Positions 1,923-18,254 of a stretch of 20,345 bases of DNA are shown here, one piece after another. The translations under genes were made by a program, and so were the position numbers. How positions within the stretch are numbered: position 1 is the first letter of the stretch; every line of letters starts with the position of its first letter. The notes under the pieces were generated by a model. The model ran no database searches, was not told where the DNA came from, and worked only from the letters and a program-made list of their open reading frames with translations. The DNA is taken from the IMG/VR virus record IMGVR_UViG_3300030118_000041, positions 1 to 20,345 of that record, one strand, 5' to 3'. The stretch comes from a virus.

Positions 1923-2081
1923 TTAAACAATAGTAAGATTTTCGCCTGACCCTATAGTAAGAGTAACACCACTATTGATTGTAATGGGGCCAGCACACAT
2001 AGCGTTCTTGCCATTAGTTATAGTATAGTTCGTTGTCATAGTCTGGCCATTTTCATAAAATAATTCATCAGATCCTCCACC
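1923..2081 (-). repeat. C-terminal fibre module, copy 1
   Basis: Encodes the last 52 residues of the 806-residue fibre, from GGGSDELFYENGQ to the terminal LTIV. Aligned by eye without gaps, 35 of 52 residues are identical to the end of the 264-residue fibre (8609-8767). The DNA has diverged much more than the protein. Confidence 0.85.
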
Positions 2082-4343
2082 TGTAGCACCAGCCGATATA
2101 CCTGTTAATGCGGAACCATCAATAGCTGGCAAAGCTCCTGTAAGTCTTGACGCTATAAGTTGTGCAGAACCATTTATAACTGTTGTACCATCTACTGAGA
2201 AACCATTATCTGCTCTCATTACTAATGGTGTGTAAACTCCGTTTGCAAATTCAGACGCATTATTTAGTCTTAAATAGCCATCGGCATAATCTGCTGAAAT
2301 TGCTATTCTTCCGTTAAAAGCAATACCCCTATTATCATCTGACGAGTTAGCCGAAAAATTAAGACAATCTCTACTAGAACTTGATAAAGTTATTATTCCA
2401 CTTAATGTGTCATTAGCATCTGATCTTGCAAAGCTACCAGAACTTACACCATCTAATGTGTCAGCATCTAATCCACTTCCAGACCCATCTACCGTTTTTA
2501 AAAGAGTTAGTATTTCTGATGCACTTTGGTCAGCAGTAGCTCCATTTTCAACATTTATAAATGTCCTTATTGCAGCTGCATTACCATGTCTTATATACCC
2601 ATCATTTCCTGTTTCTACACAAACTTGAGTAACACCACTTGAAACAGTATTAGGAGTTGTATTGAAAAAATTAGCAAAAATATATCCTGATGAATGTCTT
2701 TGAACAATAGTGCTATTTGAAGCACTTACACTTGCATTAGCACCGTCTAACGTGTCAGCGTCTAGCCCACTTCCAGAGCCGTCTACAGTTTTTAGTAATG
2801 TTAATATCTCACTTGCTGATTGATCGGCAGTGGCTCCGCTTTCAATTCCATCTAATTTACTATGATCTGCATTAGTAAAATTATTATCGGTCTGTGAAGC
2901 AACAGAAAAGTCTAGTGTGCCATCTGAGTCTTGATATGTGACAGTAATACCAGATTCAGTGTTGCTAGAAACCATACCTCCGACAATGTCTTGGACTTGC
3001 TCGTTTGAGAGTTGAGTATTAGCAGTAACGTAACCAGCACCGTTTGTAAGCTGATTATTGTTAGTGACATTAGTAGCACCAGCAGCAATTCCATTTAATT
3101 TAGACAATAAAGCATCAGTAAAAGCATTTGTATTACTGTTAGCTTCGTATGCTGTTTTGATCTCTGAGTTAGTTTGATCTGCTGTCGCCCCAGATTCAAT
3201 ACCGTCTAATTTACTATGATCTGCGTTTGTAAAGTTGTTTTGACTAAGCCCACCATCTCCAACTGTTAAATTACCTTCGTGAAATACGCTATAAAATGTA
3301 GAATCATTTGGAGAAAATTCAAGATCATCTTTTATCCTTAAAATAGAGCTATCTTCTTGATTTTTTATTCTAATATAACCCGCACTATTCCATTGAATAA
3401 ATGCTTTTTCAGTACTTCCTTCTTTAAATCTTATGTAAGGATTAGTTGCACCAGCAAGTATAAATTTTTGATCTGTTGATGAATTTAATGTATAAGTGCC
3501 ACCAGTTAAAGTATCACTTGCGTCTGATCTAACAAAACTTGCAGAAGATATGCCATCTAGAGTGTCAGCGTCTAGCCCTGACCCTGACCCATCTACCGTT
3601 TTGATTAATGTAAGTATTTCTGAGGCTGTCTGATCTGCTGTGGCATTTGATTCAATGCCATCAAGTTTTGATCCATCAGTTGCTACGTCACGCCCATCAA
3701 CTGTTCCCGATACGGATATATTGCCAGTTACTGCAATACCCCCTTGAGCATCTAATCTGTTAATAATATCAATATGACCATCTGAATTTATAACAAATTT
3801 ATCACTGTTATCAGCAGCGTCCTCAATAGTTAAAGCACCACTATCTACTTTTAATCTGTAATCAGGATTATTGTTTGTATCGGTAAATAAAATATTTGGA
3901 GTAGTTGCACTTATGACTAACTGTTCTCCGATAGTTACATTCTGACCAGACAATAAGCTTACAATTTCACTAGCTGTTTGATCTGCTGTGGCTCCGTTTT
4001 CTACGTTAAGCATTGTGCGTACATCTGACACACTTAAATTTTCAACATTACCAGTACCACTTGAATTTCTACCTAAGAAAGATGGAGTGCCGATATTTTG
4101 CATTTTTGCAAAGCTAACGACATCATTGTCAATTGTGAAAACTGAACCAGAGCTTGATACTGTTATGTCTCCTTTATCTCCATCACTAACACCAGCAGCT
4201 GCGCCTATCTCTTGAACACTTCCGTTGTCTTTTTTAGTAAATAATTGACCAGAATCTGTCCTTAATGCGACTTCTCCAACTACTAAATCTGAAGCACTAG
4301 GATCACTGCCGCTTGCATTTTTAAGTTTGATTGTGACCGACAT
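1923..4343 (-). CDS. Large modular tail fibre protein (806 aa)
   Basis: A long, Ser/Thr/Gly/Asn/Asp-rich, cysteine-poor protein built of repeats, typical of trimeric phage fibres that contact the host surface. Residues 1-45 (MSVTIKLKNASG...) resemble the N-terminus of the 487-residue fibre and probably attach the fibre to the tail tip. A 31-residue block running from ATADQ through ASEILTL and TVDGSGSGLDADTLDG occurs three times (about 234-264, 504-534 and 602-632). Shorter relatives contain SKLDGIES-GATADQ. The last 52 residues match the end of the 264-residue fibre closely. ATG at 4343 has the strongest Shine-Dalgarno sequence in the window. Repeats of this kind are familiar from marine cyanophage fibre proteins (from memory). 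Assignment as a fibre is confident; receptor and exact location are not known. Confidence 0.85.
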   Translation of the reverse strand: MSVTIKLKNASGSDPSASDLVVGEVALRTDSGQLFTKKDNGSVQEIGAAAGVSDGDKGDITVSSSGSVFTIDNDVVSFAKMQNIGTPSFLGRNSSGTGNVENLSVSDVRTMLNVENGATADQTASEIVSLLSGQNVTIGEQLVISATTPNILFTDTNNNPDYRLKVDSGALTIEDAADNSDKFVINSDGHIDIINRLDAQGGIAVTGNISVSGTVDGRDVATDGSKLDGIESNATADQTASEILTLIKTVDGSGSGLDADTLDGISSASFVRSDASDTLTGGTYTLNSSTDQKFILAGATNPYIRFKEGSTEKAFIQWNSAGYIRIKNQEDSSILRIKDDLEFSPNDSTFYSVFHEGNLTVGDGGLSQNNFTNADHSKLDGIESGATADQTNSEIKTAYEANSNTNAFTDALLSKLNGIAAGATNVTNNNQLTNGAGYVTANTQLSNEQVQDIVGGMVSSNTESGITVTYQDSDGTLDFSVASQTDNNFTNADHSKLDGIESGATADQSASEILTLLKTVDGSGSGLDADTLDGANASVSASNSTIVQRHSSGYIFANFFNTTPNTVSSGVTQVCVETGNDGYIRHGNAAAIRTFINVENGATADQSASEILTLLKTVDGSGSGLDADTLDGVSSGSFARSDANDTLSGIITLSSSSRDCLNFSANSSDDNRGIAFNGRIAISADYADGYLRLNNASEFANGVYTPLVMRADNGFSVDGTTVINGSAQLIASRLTGALPAIDGSALTGISAGATGGGSDELFYENGQTMTTNYTITNGKNAMCAGPITINSGVTLTIGSGENLTIV
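2448..2540 (-). repeat. 31-codon fibre repeat, copy nearest the C-terminus
   Basis: Encodes the block ATADQSASEILTLLKTVDGS continuing to LDADTLDG. It is identical in protein to the copy at 2742-2834 and near-identical to that at 3552-3644, but with many silent base differences. Confidence 0.85.
2742..2834 (-). repeat. 31-codon fibre repeat, middle copy
   Basis: Second copy of the ATADQ...TLDG block. It is preceded by HSKLDGIESG, whereas the copy at 2448-2540 is preceded by INVENG, so the upstream linker has been exchanged while the core is conserved. Confidence 0.85.
3552..3644 (-). repeat. 31-codon fibre repeat, copy nearest the N-terminus
   Basis: Third copy of the ATADQ...TLDG block, with only Ser to Thr and Leu to Ile changes. 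It is preceded by SKLDGIESN. Confidence 0.85.
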
Positions 4344-4347
4344 TTGT

Positions 4348-4357
4348 TCACCTCCTT
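4348..4357 (-). promoter_or_regulatory. Full-length Shine-Dalgarno sequence of the 806-residue fibre gene
   Basis: AAGGAGGTGA on the minus strand, ending four bases before the ATG at 4343. It is a complete match to the classical anti-Shine-Dalgarno complement and much stronger than the sites before most other genes here. It sits in the 26-base gap after the 487-residue fibre gene and suggests that this fibre is translated independently and strongly. Confidence 0.75.
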
Positions 4358-4369
4358 AAGAATCAGCGT

Positions 4370-5833
4370 TCAATATGTGCCGCCATTAACATCAAAACCA
4401 GAAGTTGCTCCATCTTCAAGGAAGGTTACTAGATCAGAAAGCGCAACTTGGACAATGCTCCCATTATCATTAATAATCATGCGATCTGCTGTTGCTAGGG
4501 TTGTTGAAGTAGCTGAAGTATTGCCATCTAATTTATTTATCTCGGCTGTTGTCGCTGTCACTCCGTCCATTATGTTAAGTTCAGAAGTCGTAGCAGTAAC
4601 ACCGTCCATAATGTTTAGCTCAGACGTTGTAGCAGTTACACCGTCCATGATGTTTAACTCTGAAGTAGTGGCAGTAAGCCCATCTAAAATATTTATTTCT
4701 GAGGCTGTAGCTGTAACTCCATCAAGAATATTTAATTCAGCAGTTGTGACAGTAGCACCATCTAAAATTGCCACTTCAGTTGAAGTCAAAGCAGCTAAGG
4801 CCGCAGCCGCACCAGACTGACAACCTGACAAAGCGTCTAAGTCAGCATCATAAGCCTGTATGTCTGAGCCAATGGCTAGACCTAAATTTGACCTACTAGC
4901 TGACGCACTCGTCCCGCCTGTACCCCCATCAGATATAGCTAGAGTCCCTGTGATAGAACTAGCATCTAGTTTTAAAGCTATTTTTGATGATTCAATTACA
5001 AGACCGCCATTTGACTTTAAGTCAACAGATAAAGTATTTCCAGACTTAGACAGCCCATCAGATGCCACCACTTGACCCGCGCCAGAGAACTGAACAAAGG
5101 ACAAATTATTCGTTGCCACCACCGCAGATCCCTTATCAGAACTGCAAACAAACCCATTATCGCCATTGACAGTGCCGCTTTCAACGAACATAAATGCTCC
5201 TGACGCATCAGAGCCAGCAGCCATATCATCAGCCCTTGCTGGTGATGACCCGACTATGTAAATACCATTCTCGGACGCACTAGACTGGTCTTTGACCAAT
5301 ACTCGATCATTTGTTGAAAGAGATACACCATCTAAAGTGTCGCCATTATTTAGAGCAGTTGCGATAGTAATGTTCGCAGTCGTGGCGGCGCGGACAGAAT
5401 CTTTAATATCTAAGCCCTGTGCGACTCCGTCAACATAACCTTTGTTTGCCGCATCATTATCAGCAGTAGGATCAGCCAAGTTTGTAATCTTTTGACTGTT
5501 AAGACTTACAGCACCATTAGGGGCAGTAAATTGATTTAGTCTTAATAGATCAGCTGCAACTAAAGATCTGAAAGTAGGAGCCGCAGCCGAGCCAGAGGTT
5601 GGGCCAGCTAAAATTGTATTTGCAGTTCTTGTATCTGTCTTGTTAAAAAATGCTCCAGAACCACCAACAGTAATGATTGAACTAGCAGATGGTGGGGTCG
5701 ATCCATTATCACCAAAGCCATAATATAATTTCAGATCCGCTTCATTAAATGCTAATTCTGATGGAGATAAACTTGAAGGCGCACCAGCACTGCCGCTTGC
5801 TGCTCTTTTTTTAATTCTTATTGTGTTAGACAT
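4370..5833 (-). CDS. Modular tail fibre protein with seven 13-residue repeats (487 aa)
   Basis: The N-terminal 50 residues (MSNTIRIKKRAASG... with ELAFNEADLKLYYGFG) form a module I recognise from phage fibre N-termini. A block at about 141-205, containing IKDSVRAATTANI, NDRVLVKDQ, ENGIYIVG and PARADD, is a common phage fibre domain. Residues 352-442 are seven tandem 13-residue repeats around SELNIMDGVTATT. The protein ends in DVNGGTY, similar to the end of the preceding 74-residue protein. Composition is Ala/Ser/Thr/Asp-rich with a single cysteine, as expected for a beta-structured trimeric fibre. ATG at 5833 follows the 74-residue gene by three bases, with GGAGG inside the end of that gene as ribosome binding site. 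Fibre identity is confident. Whether it is a side fibre or a tip fibre cannot be told from sequence. Confidence 0.85.
   Translation of the reverse strand: MSNTIRIKKRAASGSAGAPSSLSPSELAFNEADLKLYYGFGDNGSTPPSASSIITVGGSGAFFNKTDTRTANTILAGPTSGSAAAPTFRSLVAADLLRLNQFTAPNGAVSLNSQKITNLADPTADNDAANKGYVDGVAQGLDIKDSVRAATTANITIATALNNGDTLDGVSLSTNDRVLVKDQSSASENGIYIVGSSPARADDMAAGSDASGAFMFVESGTVNGDNGFVCSSDKGSAVVATNNLSFVQFSGAGQVVASDGLSKSGNTLSVDLKSNGGLVIESSKIALKLDASSITGTLAISDGGTGGTSASASRSNLGLAIGSDIQAYDADLDALSGCQSGAAAALAALTSTEVAILDGATVTTAELNILDGVTATASEINILDGLTATTSELNIMDGVTATTSELNIMDGVTATTSELNIMDGVTATTAEINKLDGNTSATSTTLATADRMIINDNGSIVQVALSDLVTFLEDGATSGFDVNGGTY
4508..4780 (-). repeat. Seven tandem 39-bp repeats encoding a 13-residue fibre motif
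   Basis: Exactly 7 x 39 bases. In order of translation the units read TEVAILDGATVTT, AELNILDGVTATA, SEINILDGLTATT, then three identical SELNIMDGVTATT, then AEINKLDGNTSAT. The three identical units differ from each other at 6 to 9 codons, all silently. The motif is known from cyanophage fibre proteins (from memory) and probably forms regular beta-helical or coiled turns. Confidence 0.92.
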
Positions 5834-14359: not shown

Positions 14360-14709
14360 TAGGGTTCAAAAACTTCTTGAAATGTACAAGTCAATCTAAC
14401 CCGATTTAAAAAAGGTATCGTTCTTGGATAGTTGGTGCAAATAAATTTTCGTGAAATCGTTTCAGTTGGCAATGTGAAATCAAATGATTCATTATTTGTT
14501 ATTCTTGCATTTAAAAAAGCAATAGCTGTATCAGATTGAGATTGAGATATTTCAAAAACTAAATTAGCAGTCACTGGATTTGTATTTAAACCTTCCGATA
14601 ATCTTTGTTGATATCCGTCCCCAAAATTGACAATATTTATAGAGGGTCTATGGGTGATTCTAGTGTTATATGTTGGCTGTATATCAACCTCAGTATTAAA
14701 ATTAGCCAT
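14359..14709 (-). CDS. M: Minor tail protein, lambda gpM-like
   Basis: A 116-residue protein. NIVNFGDGYQQRLSEGLN (about 26-43) is the signature of the gpM / phage minor tail family (FGDGYxQR...GLN). It is followed by ANLVFEISQSQSDTAIAF and RTIPFLNRVRLTCTFQEVFE. In lambda, M is added to the growing tail tip after L. The order here is tape measure, M, L, K, I, J, the same as in lambda apart from H being replaced by this tape measure. One-base overlaps (TAATG) on both sides. High confidence. Confidence 0.9.
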   Translation of the reverse strand: MANFNTEVDIQPTYNTRITHRPSINIVNFGDGYQQRLSEGLNTNPVTANLVFEISQSQSDTAIAFLNARITNNESFDFTLPTETISRKFICTNYPRTIPFLNRVRLTCTFQEVFEP

Positions 14710-16649
14710 TATGCAAGTAAACCTCCTGATCTTTTTTGATTAATGATTTCAGCTTGTATCGCTGCGGCAAGCTGCTCACCAAACTGATTTGACTCAGCAT
14801 CATTACCTTGAACTGAAGTACCAGAGGCATCAACATTAACAACAATGTTGTTTGTAATAGATTCACCACCAATTTTATTATTAGGAATAACAGTGCCAGC
14901 AGAACGAGGAACAAAAAGCTCAGGGCCTCTCTCACCAACTACAGAAATTTTGTTTACAGGTGGTTTTCCACCGTTTGCAAATAAGCCACCAAGAACTCCT
15001 CCTAAGATACCGCCTAAAGCACCTCCTAAACCTTTCTTCTCTCCTCCACCAAAAGCCTCTCCAAAGCCACCAAGAAGCTTGTCTATCTGTGCATCAATAA
15101 TCTTGTCTCTTATGCGGTTCAATACATTTGTCATAGCCTCTCCAAATGATTTAGCCCCTGTTATAGCGTCCCTTAAATTATTTTTTATACTGCTTTCGAT
15201 CTCTTCGCCTACAGCCATCATTTTTTCTTTTAGTTTATCTGTTTCTTCTTGATTCTTTTTAATTTGTTCTTCTTGTTTTTTTAATTCTTCATTTTGTTTT
15301 TTCTTTGCCTCAGTTATTTTTTCTTCTGATTCAAGAGTTTTTAATCTTCCATCTAACATTCTCAACTCTGCCTGTTCTTCTGCCAGCTTTGTTTGCAACA
15401 TACTTTTGCCTCGCTTTCCAGAACGAGCTAATTGATCCTCAATTTTTTTTATAACTTTAAGCTGTTCATCATAAGCTTTTTGTACATCTTCCTGACCACC
15501 TTCATTAATTAAGTCTTGGAATTTTTTTGCCTCATTTCTTGTTTTTATAAATGCAGTTGCAAGGCCACCAACAACCAAAGCAAAAGCACCAACGCCAGAG
15601 GCCAACATTGCAATTTTCAAAGCACCAAGAGCAACAGTCGTAGCCCCAATGCCTTTAGCAGCAAGCAAAGAAGATGCAGTTAGACCTGTAAATCCACTTT
15701 TTGCAAGTAAGGCTGCTGTTCCGACCATGCTTAATTTGGTTAATAATGCAGTTACAGCACCAGTTACCAAAGGAATAGCTAACGCTAAAACTTTTGCAGT
15801 AACAGCAATTTTGGCAAGTAATATCACAGCTTGTCCAGCATTAGTTCCAGAAAACTCCAACAGTTTATTTATAAGATCTGTCAATAATTTTGTAACACCC
15901 TCAACTGCTGGTCTAAGTTCAGAACCAAGAGCAATCGACAGATCCTGTGTAGCATTTTGAAAGTTTTTAAATATTTGTGTTGGATCATTTTTTAATAATT
16001 CTTCCAAGAACCCGCTGCCTTCTTTTCCTACTCTTCCCAAAGCTCTAAGAACCACATCACTGGTCAATTTTCCTTCAGCAGCTAATTTTTTAAGTTCTCC
16101 AATAGTTACACCAAGTTCAGCAGCTATAGGAGCAAGAACTGTTGGCACTTGTTCTGAAACACTCCTAAATTCATCACCAGCCAGCCTTCCTGAGCCAAGA
16201 GCCTGTGCTAGTTGCCTAAATGCGTTTGACGATTCTACCGCTGATGCACCAGCTAATTTTGCGGCAGTATTAAATCCAAAGAATACAGTCCTAATATCAT
16301 CAACACCAACTTTTAGAGGAGCTAGTCTTGCTGTTATATCTGTTACACCTTCTAAAGCTTCAATCGTACTTAATCCAAATGCTTTCTGTGCATCTTTAGC
16401 AATTTGAAGAGATTTAGCAAATGATCCACTTTCTTTTGTAAGCAATCCTAATCGTATTTTTAATTTATCAAAAGTAGCTGATGCGTTTACCGCTTGCCTA
16501 GCAACTACTGTTAAACCAATCCCAGCAAGAGCAGTTCTTAGGCCACCAAATGATTTCTGTAGAGCATTTGTTTTTTGTTGTACACCATTTAATGCCCTAG
16601 TCGCACCGCTGGCATCAACTTTTAACCTAACAACTGATTCAACCGCCAC
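14709..16649 (-). CDS. H: Tape measure protein
   Basis: A 646-residue protein with GTG start at 16649, 24 bases after the chaperone extension stop, preceded by AAAGG. Residues about 40-215 are the tape measure N-terminal domain (FDKLKIRLGLLTKESGSFAK; SSNAFRQLAQALGSGRLAGD with EFRSVSEQVP). About 265-370 is hydrophobic (membrane insertion on DNA ejection), and about 375-475 is a long charged coiled coil. A Gly-rich region (FGEAFGGGEKKG...GGLFANGG) leads to the C-terminal VVGERGPELFVP motif typical of these proteins. Using the usual 0.15 nm per residue, it predicts a tail near 97 nm. It sets tail length and helps the genome to cross the membrane. High confidence. Confidence 0.95.
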   Translation of the reverse strand: MAVESVVRLKVDASGATRALNGVQQKTNALQKSFGGLRTALAGIGLTVVARQAVNASATFDKLKIRLGLLTKESGSFAKSLQIAKDAQKAFGLSTIEALEGVTDITARLAPLKVGVDDIRTVFFGFNTAAKLAGASAVESSNAFRQLAQALGSGRLAGDEFRSVSEQVPTVLAPIAAELGVTIGELKKLAAEGKLTSDVVLRALGRVGKEGSGFLEELLKNDPTQIFKNFQNATQDLSIALGSELRPAVEGVTKLLTDLINKLLEFSGTNAGQAVILLAKIAVTAKVLALAIPLVTGAVTALLTKLSMVGTAALLAKSGFTGLTASSLLAAKGIGATTVALGALKIAMLASGVGAFALVVGGLATAFIKTRNEAKKFQDLINEGGQEDVQKAYDEQLKVIKKIEDQLARSGKRGKSMLQTKLAEEQAELRMLDGRLKTLESEEKITEAKKKQNEELKKQEEQIKKNQEETDKLKEKMMAVGEEIESSIKNNLRDAITGAKSFGEAMTNVLNRIRDKIIDAQIDKLLGGFGEAFGGGEKKGLGGALGGILGGVLGGLFANGGKPPVNKISVVGERGPELFVPRSAGTVIPNNKIGGESITNNIVVNVDASGTSVQGNDAESNQFGEQLAAAIQAEIINQKRSGGLLA

Positions 16650-16673: not shown

Positions 16674-17206
16674 TTACCTTAATTGTTGTTTTTGTCGTTG
16701 CAATGCTCTTTTTTCTTCGTCAGTTTTAACTTCATAATATGCCGCCCAATAAATAAGCTCTGCCTCAGTCATCTTAAGCCTGAGTTCTTGCACTGTCTTA
16801 CCGAGTTCTGTTGCTAGGAAAAACTCAAACCTGAGCCAAGTATCCCCTTTTATTCTTTTTTTGCTGTATCAATATCAAGCTTGATGTCATTTAAGAAAAG
16901 CTCAAGGTCATTTAATACCTTTTCTGGAAGCTGTCTTTGAAGCATAGGGGCATCTGACATATCAAAAGCCAAAGAGCCATCTTCTTTTTCTGCCATTTGA
17001 CAAAGCAGTTGAGTTGATACAACCAAAGCGTCAGCGTTTGGGCCAGCTAATTGCTGTGCTTTGACCCTTGCATATCTTGTAATTGGCTTGAAATATAAAG
17101 TCATAATGACTTCATCTTTAGAGTTTTTTACATCAAACTGTCGTCTTGTGACCATTTCATCTTGAAACGCCCCAAGCAATACCTCTGCGGTTCTTTTAGT
17201 TGCCAT
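16674..17206 (-). CDS. Tail assembly chaperone long form by -1 frameshift (lambda gpGT-like)
   Basis: Predicted fusion of the 118-residue short form (17206-16850) with a 60-codon -1 frame extension ending at TAA 16676-16674. The join is at A AAA AAA (16862-16856), three codons before the short-form stop. The extension reads RIKGDTWLRFEFFLATELGK and continues with TEAELIYWAAYYEVKTDEEK before RALQRQKQQLR, a helical, charged sequence typical of the T part of these chaperones. Fusion length 177 residues. The long form is known in lambda to recruit tail tube subunits, while the short form binds the tape measure protein, whose gene follows directly. No independent start codon with ribosome site is seen for the extension. 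The frame stays open across the whole region and is preserved exactly to the tape measure gene. Confidence 0.85.
16850..17206 (-). CDS. G: Tail assembly chaperone short form (lambda gpG-like)
   Basis: A 118-residue protein translated without frameshift. MATKRTAEVLLGAFQDEMVT, TRRQFDVKNSKDEVIMTLYF and helical blocks with DALVVSTQLLCQMAEKEDGS follow the pattern of gpG-type chaperones that coat the tape measure protein. It lies between the tail tube gene and the tape measure gene, the standard place. The last codons are GCA AAA AAA GAA TAA, which contain the slippery run used for the long form. No Shine-Dalgarno sequence is evident upstream in the 24-base gap. Confidence 0.85.
   Translation of the reverse strand: MATKRTAEVLLGAFQDEMVTRRQFDVKNSKDEVIMTLYFKPITRYARVKAQQLAGPNADALVVSTQLLCQMAEKEDGSLAFDMSDAPMLQRQLPEKVLNDLELFLNDIKLDIDTAKKE
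16856..16862 (-). other. Slippery heptamer for -1 ribosomal frameshift
   Basis: Seven consecutive A on the minus strand read in zero frame as A AAA AAA, followed by GAA TAA. This fits the X XXY YYZ rule. A shift of -1 enters a 60-codon frame that completes the chaperone. Confidence 0.85.
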
Positions 17207-17230: not shown

Positions 17231-17650
17231 TTAAATTGCTGATGTGATTGTGCCAGATGGCTTGAATGTAATGCTGATTGTATTTACATCACCAAGTGCT
17301 GAACTTTGCTCAAAGTTTGTAACAAGGCCGCTGAAACTTATTTTTTTTGTTCCACTCGCACTGTTAGGGAAAAGCTCAAAAGAGGCTGTTGCAGAGTCAC
17401 CTGTTGTCAAACAAGCATCAATAAAAGTTGCAGTCTCACCAGATGCGGCATCATCATAAACTAATTCAGCAGATCCCTCACCTTCAATAAGTCCACCAAC
17501 ATAAGATTTGAAAGTGTCACCTTGAACAGTTGTTTCTTGGATATCTTTGGTGATAGACATAGACCATGATCTAGTGCCAAGCACAGGGTTGACTGAAGAG
17601 CCGTCATCATCAAATTTGACTTGCCCGACATCACCTTTTACAGCAGCCAT
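17231..17650 (-). CDS. Major tail tube protein
   Basis: A 139-residue, beta-rich protein. MAAVKGDVGQVKFDDDG, RSWSMSITKDIQETTVQGDT, SYVGGLIEGEGSAELVYDD and TKKISFSGLVTNFEQSSALG with SITFKPSGTI match the small tail tube proteins of siphophages (SWSMSxTKDxxxxTxxGD...SYVGGLxxGxGxxExxxD). It forms the stacked hexamer rings of the tail tube. It sits between the tail terminator and the chaperone, as expected. No clear Shine-Dalgarno sequence is present before ATG 17650; an AT-rich gap of 29 bases upstream holds TATAAATA, a possible promoter element. Confidence 0.9.
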   Translation of the reverse strand: MAAVKGDVGQVKFDDDGSSVNPVLGTRSWSMSITKDIQETTVQGDTFKSYVGGLIEGEGSAELVYDDAASGETATFIDACLTTGDSATASFELFPNSASGTKKISFSGLVTNFEQSSALGDVNTISITFKPSGTITSAI

Positions 17651-17679: not shown

Positions 17680-17820
17680 TTAACCTTTTTTTGGTTTTTT
17701 TACAGCTTTTGCTTTCTGACTTTCCAAATATCGTCTGCACTTAGGATCCCAATATCTTGGATCTCTTATACCTTTTACAGCTTCAATAGCGTCAAGCATC
17801 TCCTCAGTAATTTCAATCAT
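17680..17820 (-). CDS. Small charged protein (46 aa), tail module
   Basis: A 46-codon frame whose ATG (17820) overlaps the stop of the tail terminator gene as ATGA. The peptide MIEITEEMLDAIEAVKGIRD, then PRYWDPKCRRYLES and a Lys/Pro tail (KKPKKG), begins acidic and helical and ends basic. A gene is expected here because otherwise 166 bases would be unused in a packed operon. I do not recognise a family. The acid-to-basic layout suggests a small binding or assembly factor for the tail tube, but this is only inference. Confidence 0.68.
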   Translation of the reverse strand: MIEITEEMLDAIEAVKGIRDPRYWDPKCRRYLESQKAKAVKKPKKG

Positions 17821-18254
17821 GGTGTAAGTGCCTCATATAATTCAAATGTTATTCTAACCTGTGTCTGAAATTTGCCTTCTGGAGTTGATTGTAATACCTC
17901 AGGCCCTACTGGGGGATCAAAGCGTACATCAGAGACTGTAATTCTATTAAATAAATTTCTCAATCTTTTACCTATTGCAAAATTTTCCCCTGCCCCTACT
18001 CCTTGTCTTGTAAAAATATCAATAACAATAAGACCCACAACAAGGTTTGTAGCGGTGGTACTTGCATTAGGTGCTTGCTGTGTAAGGTATTCACTTGATC
18101 CAAAGCTAGTAACGCATTGAATATATTTATCAACAGTAGAGGCATCAAAAGGGGTGTTGTTAAAAACAAGAGGTATTGATGGCCCTATTCTAAACTCATC
18201 ATTCAAGCGTTTCTCAATAGTTGCCCTAACTGTGTTTAAATCTGTAGCGGCCAT
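17817..18254 (-). CDS. Tail terminator protein (lambda gpU-like / DUF4128-like)
   Basis: A 145-residue protein. The opening helix DLNTVRATIEKRLNDEF, a segment IPLVFNNTPFDAST, the beta strand TNLVVGLIVIDIFTRQGVGA and the ending FQTQVRITFELYEALTP are typical of the small terminator proteins that cap the tail tube and join it to the head. The position between the HK97-gp10-like neck protein and the tail tube gene supports this. Its TGA overlaps the following small gene. Confidence 0.82.
   Translation of the reverse strand: MAATDLNTVRATIEKRLNDEFRIGPSIPLVFNNTPFDASTVDKYIQCVTSFGSSEYLTQQAPNASTTATNLVVGLIVIDIFTRQGVGAGENFAIGKRLRNLFNRITVSDVRFDPPVGPEVLQSTPEGKFQTQVRITFELYEALTP

Follow-up and report, generated by a model that had tools for sequence, protein, structure and literature searches.

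The tail assembly chaperone locus of a 20,345-base, AT-rich (38% GC) virus record from IMG/VR, all of which was analysed and is referred to here as the window, raises the question of how a second reading frame that overlaps the 3' end of the chaperone gene and continues beyond its stop codon is expressed. This second frame is present in each of the 81 sequences formed by the window and its 80 closest viral contigs (group A), and the gene lies between the major tail protein and tape measure genes, as in the lambda G/GT type. The initial annotation proposed that a programmed -1 frameshift joins two halves of a tail assembly chaperone, a proposal supported by homology, conservation, selection and gene order. 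We consider it very probable, from sequence comparison, structural models and the lambda analogy, that the locus encodes a G/GT-type chaperone pair whose long form is made by a -1 ribosomal slip on an A_AAA_AAA heptamer.

Profile matches order the tail module as tail terminator, major tail protein, chaperone, tape measure and central fibre J, and the features of the locus itself are listed in Table 1. The window also encodes fibre-like proteins with internal repeats (ADQTASEIL..., TATTSELNIMDGV...) at positions 1923-4343 and 4370-5833, adjoining several short structural genes.

Table 1. Coordinates of the chaperone locus and adjacent tail genes in the window
Feature	Coordinates	Strand	Basis
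Tail terminator	17817..18254	-	phrog_179 E=8e-16
Major tail protein, directly upstream of the chaperone	17231..17650	-	phrog_10528 E=1e-28
Short tail assembly chaperone (gpG-like), 118 aa, normal-frame product	16850..17206	-	ORF; phrog_20784 E=1e-24
Slippery heptamer A_AAA_AAA, putative -1 slip site	16856..16862	-	zero-frame codons GCA AAA AAA
-1 frame extension (gpT-like), 60 aa plus stop	16674..16856	-	phrog_337 E=5e-8
Tape measure protein, 646 aa, GTG start, directly downstream	14709..16649	-	Pfam TMP_3 E=1e-35; several PHROG tape measure families

The short form matches a PHROG without an assigned function (phrog_20784), and neither half of the protein reaches any Pfam or NCBIfam model. 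Searches of PDB sequences with profiles of either half gave no meaningful match, and a DNA-level search of public phages gave no match. An AlphaFold model of the short form (pLDDT 86) has as its best PDB match the HK97 tail assembly chaperone 2ob9 (Foldseek E=7e-4, probability 1.00, TM-score about 0.5, 14% identity over the structural alignment). In a library of viral structures both halves match the 160-residue 'Tail assembly chaperone' of Rhodobacter phage RcRhea, and both also match a 179-residue protein, D6PII1. The short form has a dN/dS of 0.09. By its position, domain homology and predicted fold, the gene is a gpG-type tail assembly chaperone belonging to a G/GT-type pair.

The zero frame begins with ATG at 17206 and ends ...ACA GCA AAA AAA GAA TAA, in which the run of seven A residues is phased as A_AAA_AAA relative to that frame. 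Past the slip the -1 frame reads RIKGDTWLRFEFFLATELGK... for 60 codons to a TAA, so that a fusion product would be 177 residues long, and 24 bases separate the extension stop from the tape measure start at 16649. Upstream of the slip the -1 frame is open for just four codons, and any change of frame is thus confined to a very short stretch. The coordinates, heptamer phase, 60-codon frame, 177-residue fusion and 24-base gap given by the initial annotation all prove correct to the base.

The extension matches phrog_337 (E=4.8e-8), a family also matched by lambda gpT (E=4.7e-7) and by 30 of the 30 family members scanned, and it is predicted to form a helical domain (pLDDT 87). Substitution patterns show that the -1 frame is under purifying selection, with dN/dS of 0.15 in group A, 0.12 in a group of relatives that includes phages P-HS2 and MED4-117 (group B) and 0.10 in a group that includes Synechococcus phage S-H1 (group C), while the other frames have values above one. 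This selection includes the first 18 codons past the zero-frame stop, which lie ahead of any possible start codon (dN/dS of 0.15 for group A and 0.02 for the P-HS2 group). Because selection acts on these codons, the extension is, by this evidence, translated into protein, and a change of frame is the only way into it.

The same observations bear on whether the -1 frame could be a small gene in its own right, with translation beginning internally or by re-initiation, and never fused to the chaperone. There is an in-frame GTG at 16793 and an in-frame ATG at 16772, and the public S-H1 record annotates a separate 47-residue hypothetical protein within the extension. The conserved part of the extension (GDTWLRFEFFLATELGKT), however, is upstream of any in-frame ATG, GTG or TTG, in-frame ATG codons are absent from 71 of the 80 group B loci and all three start codons from 3/80, and the slip-site bases are conserved although a separate gene has no need of them. 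Independent translation of the whole extension is ruled out by the selection on its start-less first 18 codons, and we regard a separate gene as extremely improbable. This answers the reservation in the initial annotation that an independent start might translate the extension alone, as no start codon is found upstream of its conserved N-terminal part.

The heptamer alone is weak evidence for a frameshift, as in-phase X_XXY_YYZ heptamers are frequent, with 52 in the 6,335 codons of the window, and six other in-phase copies of A_AAA_AAA are found in other genes. These numbers are what would favour the -1 frame being a chance open sequence in AT-rich DNA, with the heptamer there by coincidence. 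Apart from the one at 16862, however, no heptamer opens a frame longer than 39 codons, compared with 60 codons at 16862, and a chance open frame is refuted by conservation across relatives, by dN/dS and by the uniform phrog_337 matches (30/30), leaving this explanation with a negligible probability. Separately, we note that the tape measure gene contains three in-phase copies of A_AAA_AAA, each of which reaches a -1 stop within five codons; with these copies inside that gene, A_AAA_AAA must by itself be only weakly slippery or tolerated.

What distinguishes the heptamer at the chaperone 3' end is its conservation, which the initial annotation had suggested examining in related phages: A_AAA_AAA is present in 80 of the 81 group A sequences and A_AAA_AAC in the remaining one (L026), all in phase, and the -1 frame is kept in all of these close relatives. 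Among 69 distinct group A sequences there is no synonymous change in GCA AAA AAA, although lysine is encoded by AAG at other positions of the gene, and nowhere except in the last four sense codons do three or more consecutive codons lack synonymous variation. Since bases 5' of the heptamer's last base are not decoded in the -1 frame, double coding cannot explain the missing variation. Judged from these alignments, the conservation of the heptamer (81/81) and the purifying selection on the -1 frame are not due to chance.

An A-run could in principle also act during transcription, with RNA polymerase slippage adding an A to the mRNA at the seven A residues and generating the fusion without any ribosomal slip. 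Polymerase slippage at poly-A is known in bacteria, the reported cases examined being 11 A residues in Citrobacter rodentium tssM1 and nine at a Yersinia site (PMC4256274), and no RNA stimulator of a ribosomal shift was found here. The run in the window is only seven residues long, however, compared with 9 to 11 in those cases, and the A_AAA_AAC sites of L026, the S-H1 group and a further relative, L326, have six A residues with the codon phase unchanged. Homologues related to P-HS2 and to AG-345-A17 moreover keep the extension with A runs of no more than 3 to 5 at the site. Transcriptional slippage on seven A residues is therefore unlikely, and we assign it only a slight probability.

That the frame change is ribosomal is an inference, as are how often it takes place and how the two products share the work. 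In the -1 ribosomal slip that we favour, most ribosomes would read 118 codons to the TAA and produce the short chaperone, and a minority would slip back one base by low-level tandem slippage of the two tRNA-Lys that occupy the P and A sites on A_AAA_AAA. The slipped ribosomes would read AAA AAA AGA..., miss the TAA and append 60 residues to give the 177-residue fusion. A_AAA_AAA is a known slip heptamer, weaker in Escherichia coli than A_AAA_AAG, and the lambda long product is made at about 1:30 (PMC5009743); a weak site is consistent with a long product made in small amounts. On the lambda model, the tape measure protein would be coated by many copies of the short form, and the few long forms would use their extension to bring in the major tail protein.

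A search for stable pseudoknot-free RNA structure in the 70 nt downstream of the zero-frame stop in group A gave a mean z of +0.5 and no sequence below -2, and an Rfam search of the window gave no match. The same 70 nt interval in the S-H1 group has a mean z of -1.6 with 36% of loci below -2, unlike the other groups, and this mild tendency towards structure is a possible stimulator.

More distant homologues carry different signals at the same junction. These groups of relatives were picked by similarity and are not independent samples, and each signal is nearly uniform within its group. The S-H1 group (80 loci, L166-L245, and S-H1 itself) uses A_AAA_AAC, with one A_AAA_AAA, and has the extension in the -1 frame and an in-phase heptamer in 80/80. 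A_AAA_AAC is also present in L326 (positions 4001-4527, 61% identity), the sole relative from one scan of genome contigs; it is in a single-cell assembly labelled uncultured Alphaproteobacteria, and if this label is taken at face value the host range of the tail module may exceed the cyanobacteria.

In the P-HS2/MED4-117 group (L086-L165, L082, L085) a canonical heptamer is absent from the last codons of the short gene in 80/80, and there is instead an invariant NNA_AAG_GAA, and the -1 frame carries the conserved extension. There are four alternatives for the first codon (GCA in 38, GTA in 26, ACA in 14 and ATA in 2) but its third base is always A and the following AAG GAA is invariant, and NNA_AAG provides the only bases allowing re-pairing. 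At the sequence level this pattern agrees with a single-tRNA slip on NNA_AAG that is known in E. coli and IS1222 and is aided by flexible decoding of the 5' codon (PMC5009743), and as AAA GG AA it fits, at least by name, the 'threetwotwo' motif of PRFect (PMC10885494).

The AG-345-A17 group (80 loci; L246-L325, L084) differs in direction: the extension occupies the +1 frame, after an invariant TTR_AAA_A (80/80) that reads TTR AAA AGC in nearly all. This +1 frame is closed by a stop formed from TTR and the bases that follow, and the shift must thus occur at TTR AAA A, where tRNA-Lys could re-pair one base forward on AAA_A. One apparent zero-frame case (L281) comes from a contig whose short form carries an internal deletion, and its TTG AAA AGC site is intact. 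The initial annotation took relatives lacking both the slip site and an open -1 frame as evidence that would count against a frameshift; the extension is kept among the relatives, but some distant ones lack the heptamer or have the extension in the +1 frame.

Taken together, these patterns make it probable that within one homologous chaperone gene of marine phages the recoding signal was replaced repeatedly and the direction of the shift flipped (A_AAA_AAA/C for a tandem -1 slip, NNA_AAG_GAA for a -1 slip of a single tRNA, TTR_AAA_A(GC) for +1), with the fusion kept. The change of both signal and direction while the fusion persists suggests that selection maintains the fusion and not any one slip sequence. 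If so, the family provides a natural series for studying the evolution of recoding signals; the mechanism itself is textbook, and what is added is the change of signal and direction in one family while the fused product is conserved.

There are also consequences for annotation. The public records of P-HS2, MED4-117 and S-H1 that we inspected contain no annotated fusion; the extension is unannotated in the first two, and that of S-H1 has only the internal 47-residue ORF. Identification of the extension therefore supplies the missing half of a tail assembly protein that is absent or partial in these cultured cyanophage records. We found no paper reporting this frameshift in these cyanophages in a search that covered few subscription journals, so an earlier report may exist. 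The succession of phrog_20784 and then phrog_337 in another frame offers an annotation profile that works where a heptamer search fails.

The locus resembles lambda G/GT in its placement between the major tail and tape measure genes, in having a short form with a -1 extension, and in the membership of that extension in phrog_337. It differs in its slip site (A_AAA_AAA rather than the G_GGA_AAG of lambda), in the length of the extension (60 residues compared with about 140), in the position of the shift two codons before the zero-frame stop, and in the PHROG of the short form (20784 rather than 42). HK97 also makes a frameshifted long form, and its chaperone is the best PDB match for the fold of the short form, yet with the low identity and modest TM-score given above. 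Related named phages are S-H1 (56% identity), which has the -1 frame and a heptamer in equal codon phase but with A_AAA_AAC, and the Prochlorococcus cyanophages MED4-117, MED4-184 and P-HS2 (53% identity), which have a homologous short form and extension in the same order and in the -1 frame but differ in having the invariant NNA_AAG_GAA and no canonical heptamer. The published A_AAA_AAC -1 site in g-t expression of the haloarchaeal virus HCTV-2 (PMC5009743) is the same as that of L026 and the S-H1 group, although HCTV-2 is an archaeal virus. Many tail chaperones use -1 shifts, and the haloarchaeal virus HSTV-2 is considered very likely to use a +1 shift (PMC5009743). The initial annotation described the all-A heptamer as unusual; the seven A residues are indeed present, but their novelty was overstated, as A_AAA_AAA and A_AAA_AAC are both known shift sites (PMC5009743). 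The A7 heptamer is thus not novel, and the window is an ordinary further case of the known lambda/HK97-type mechanism.
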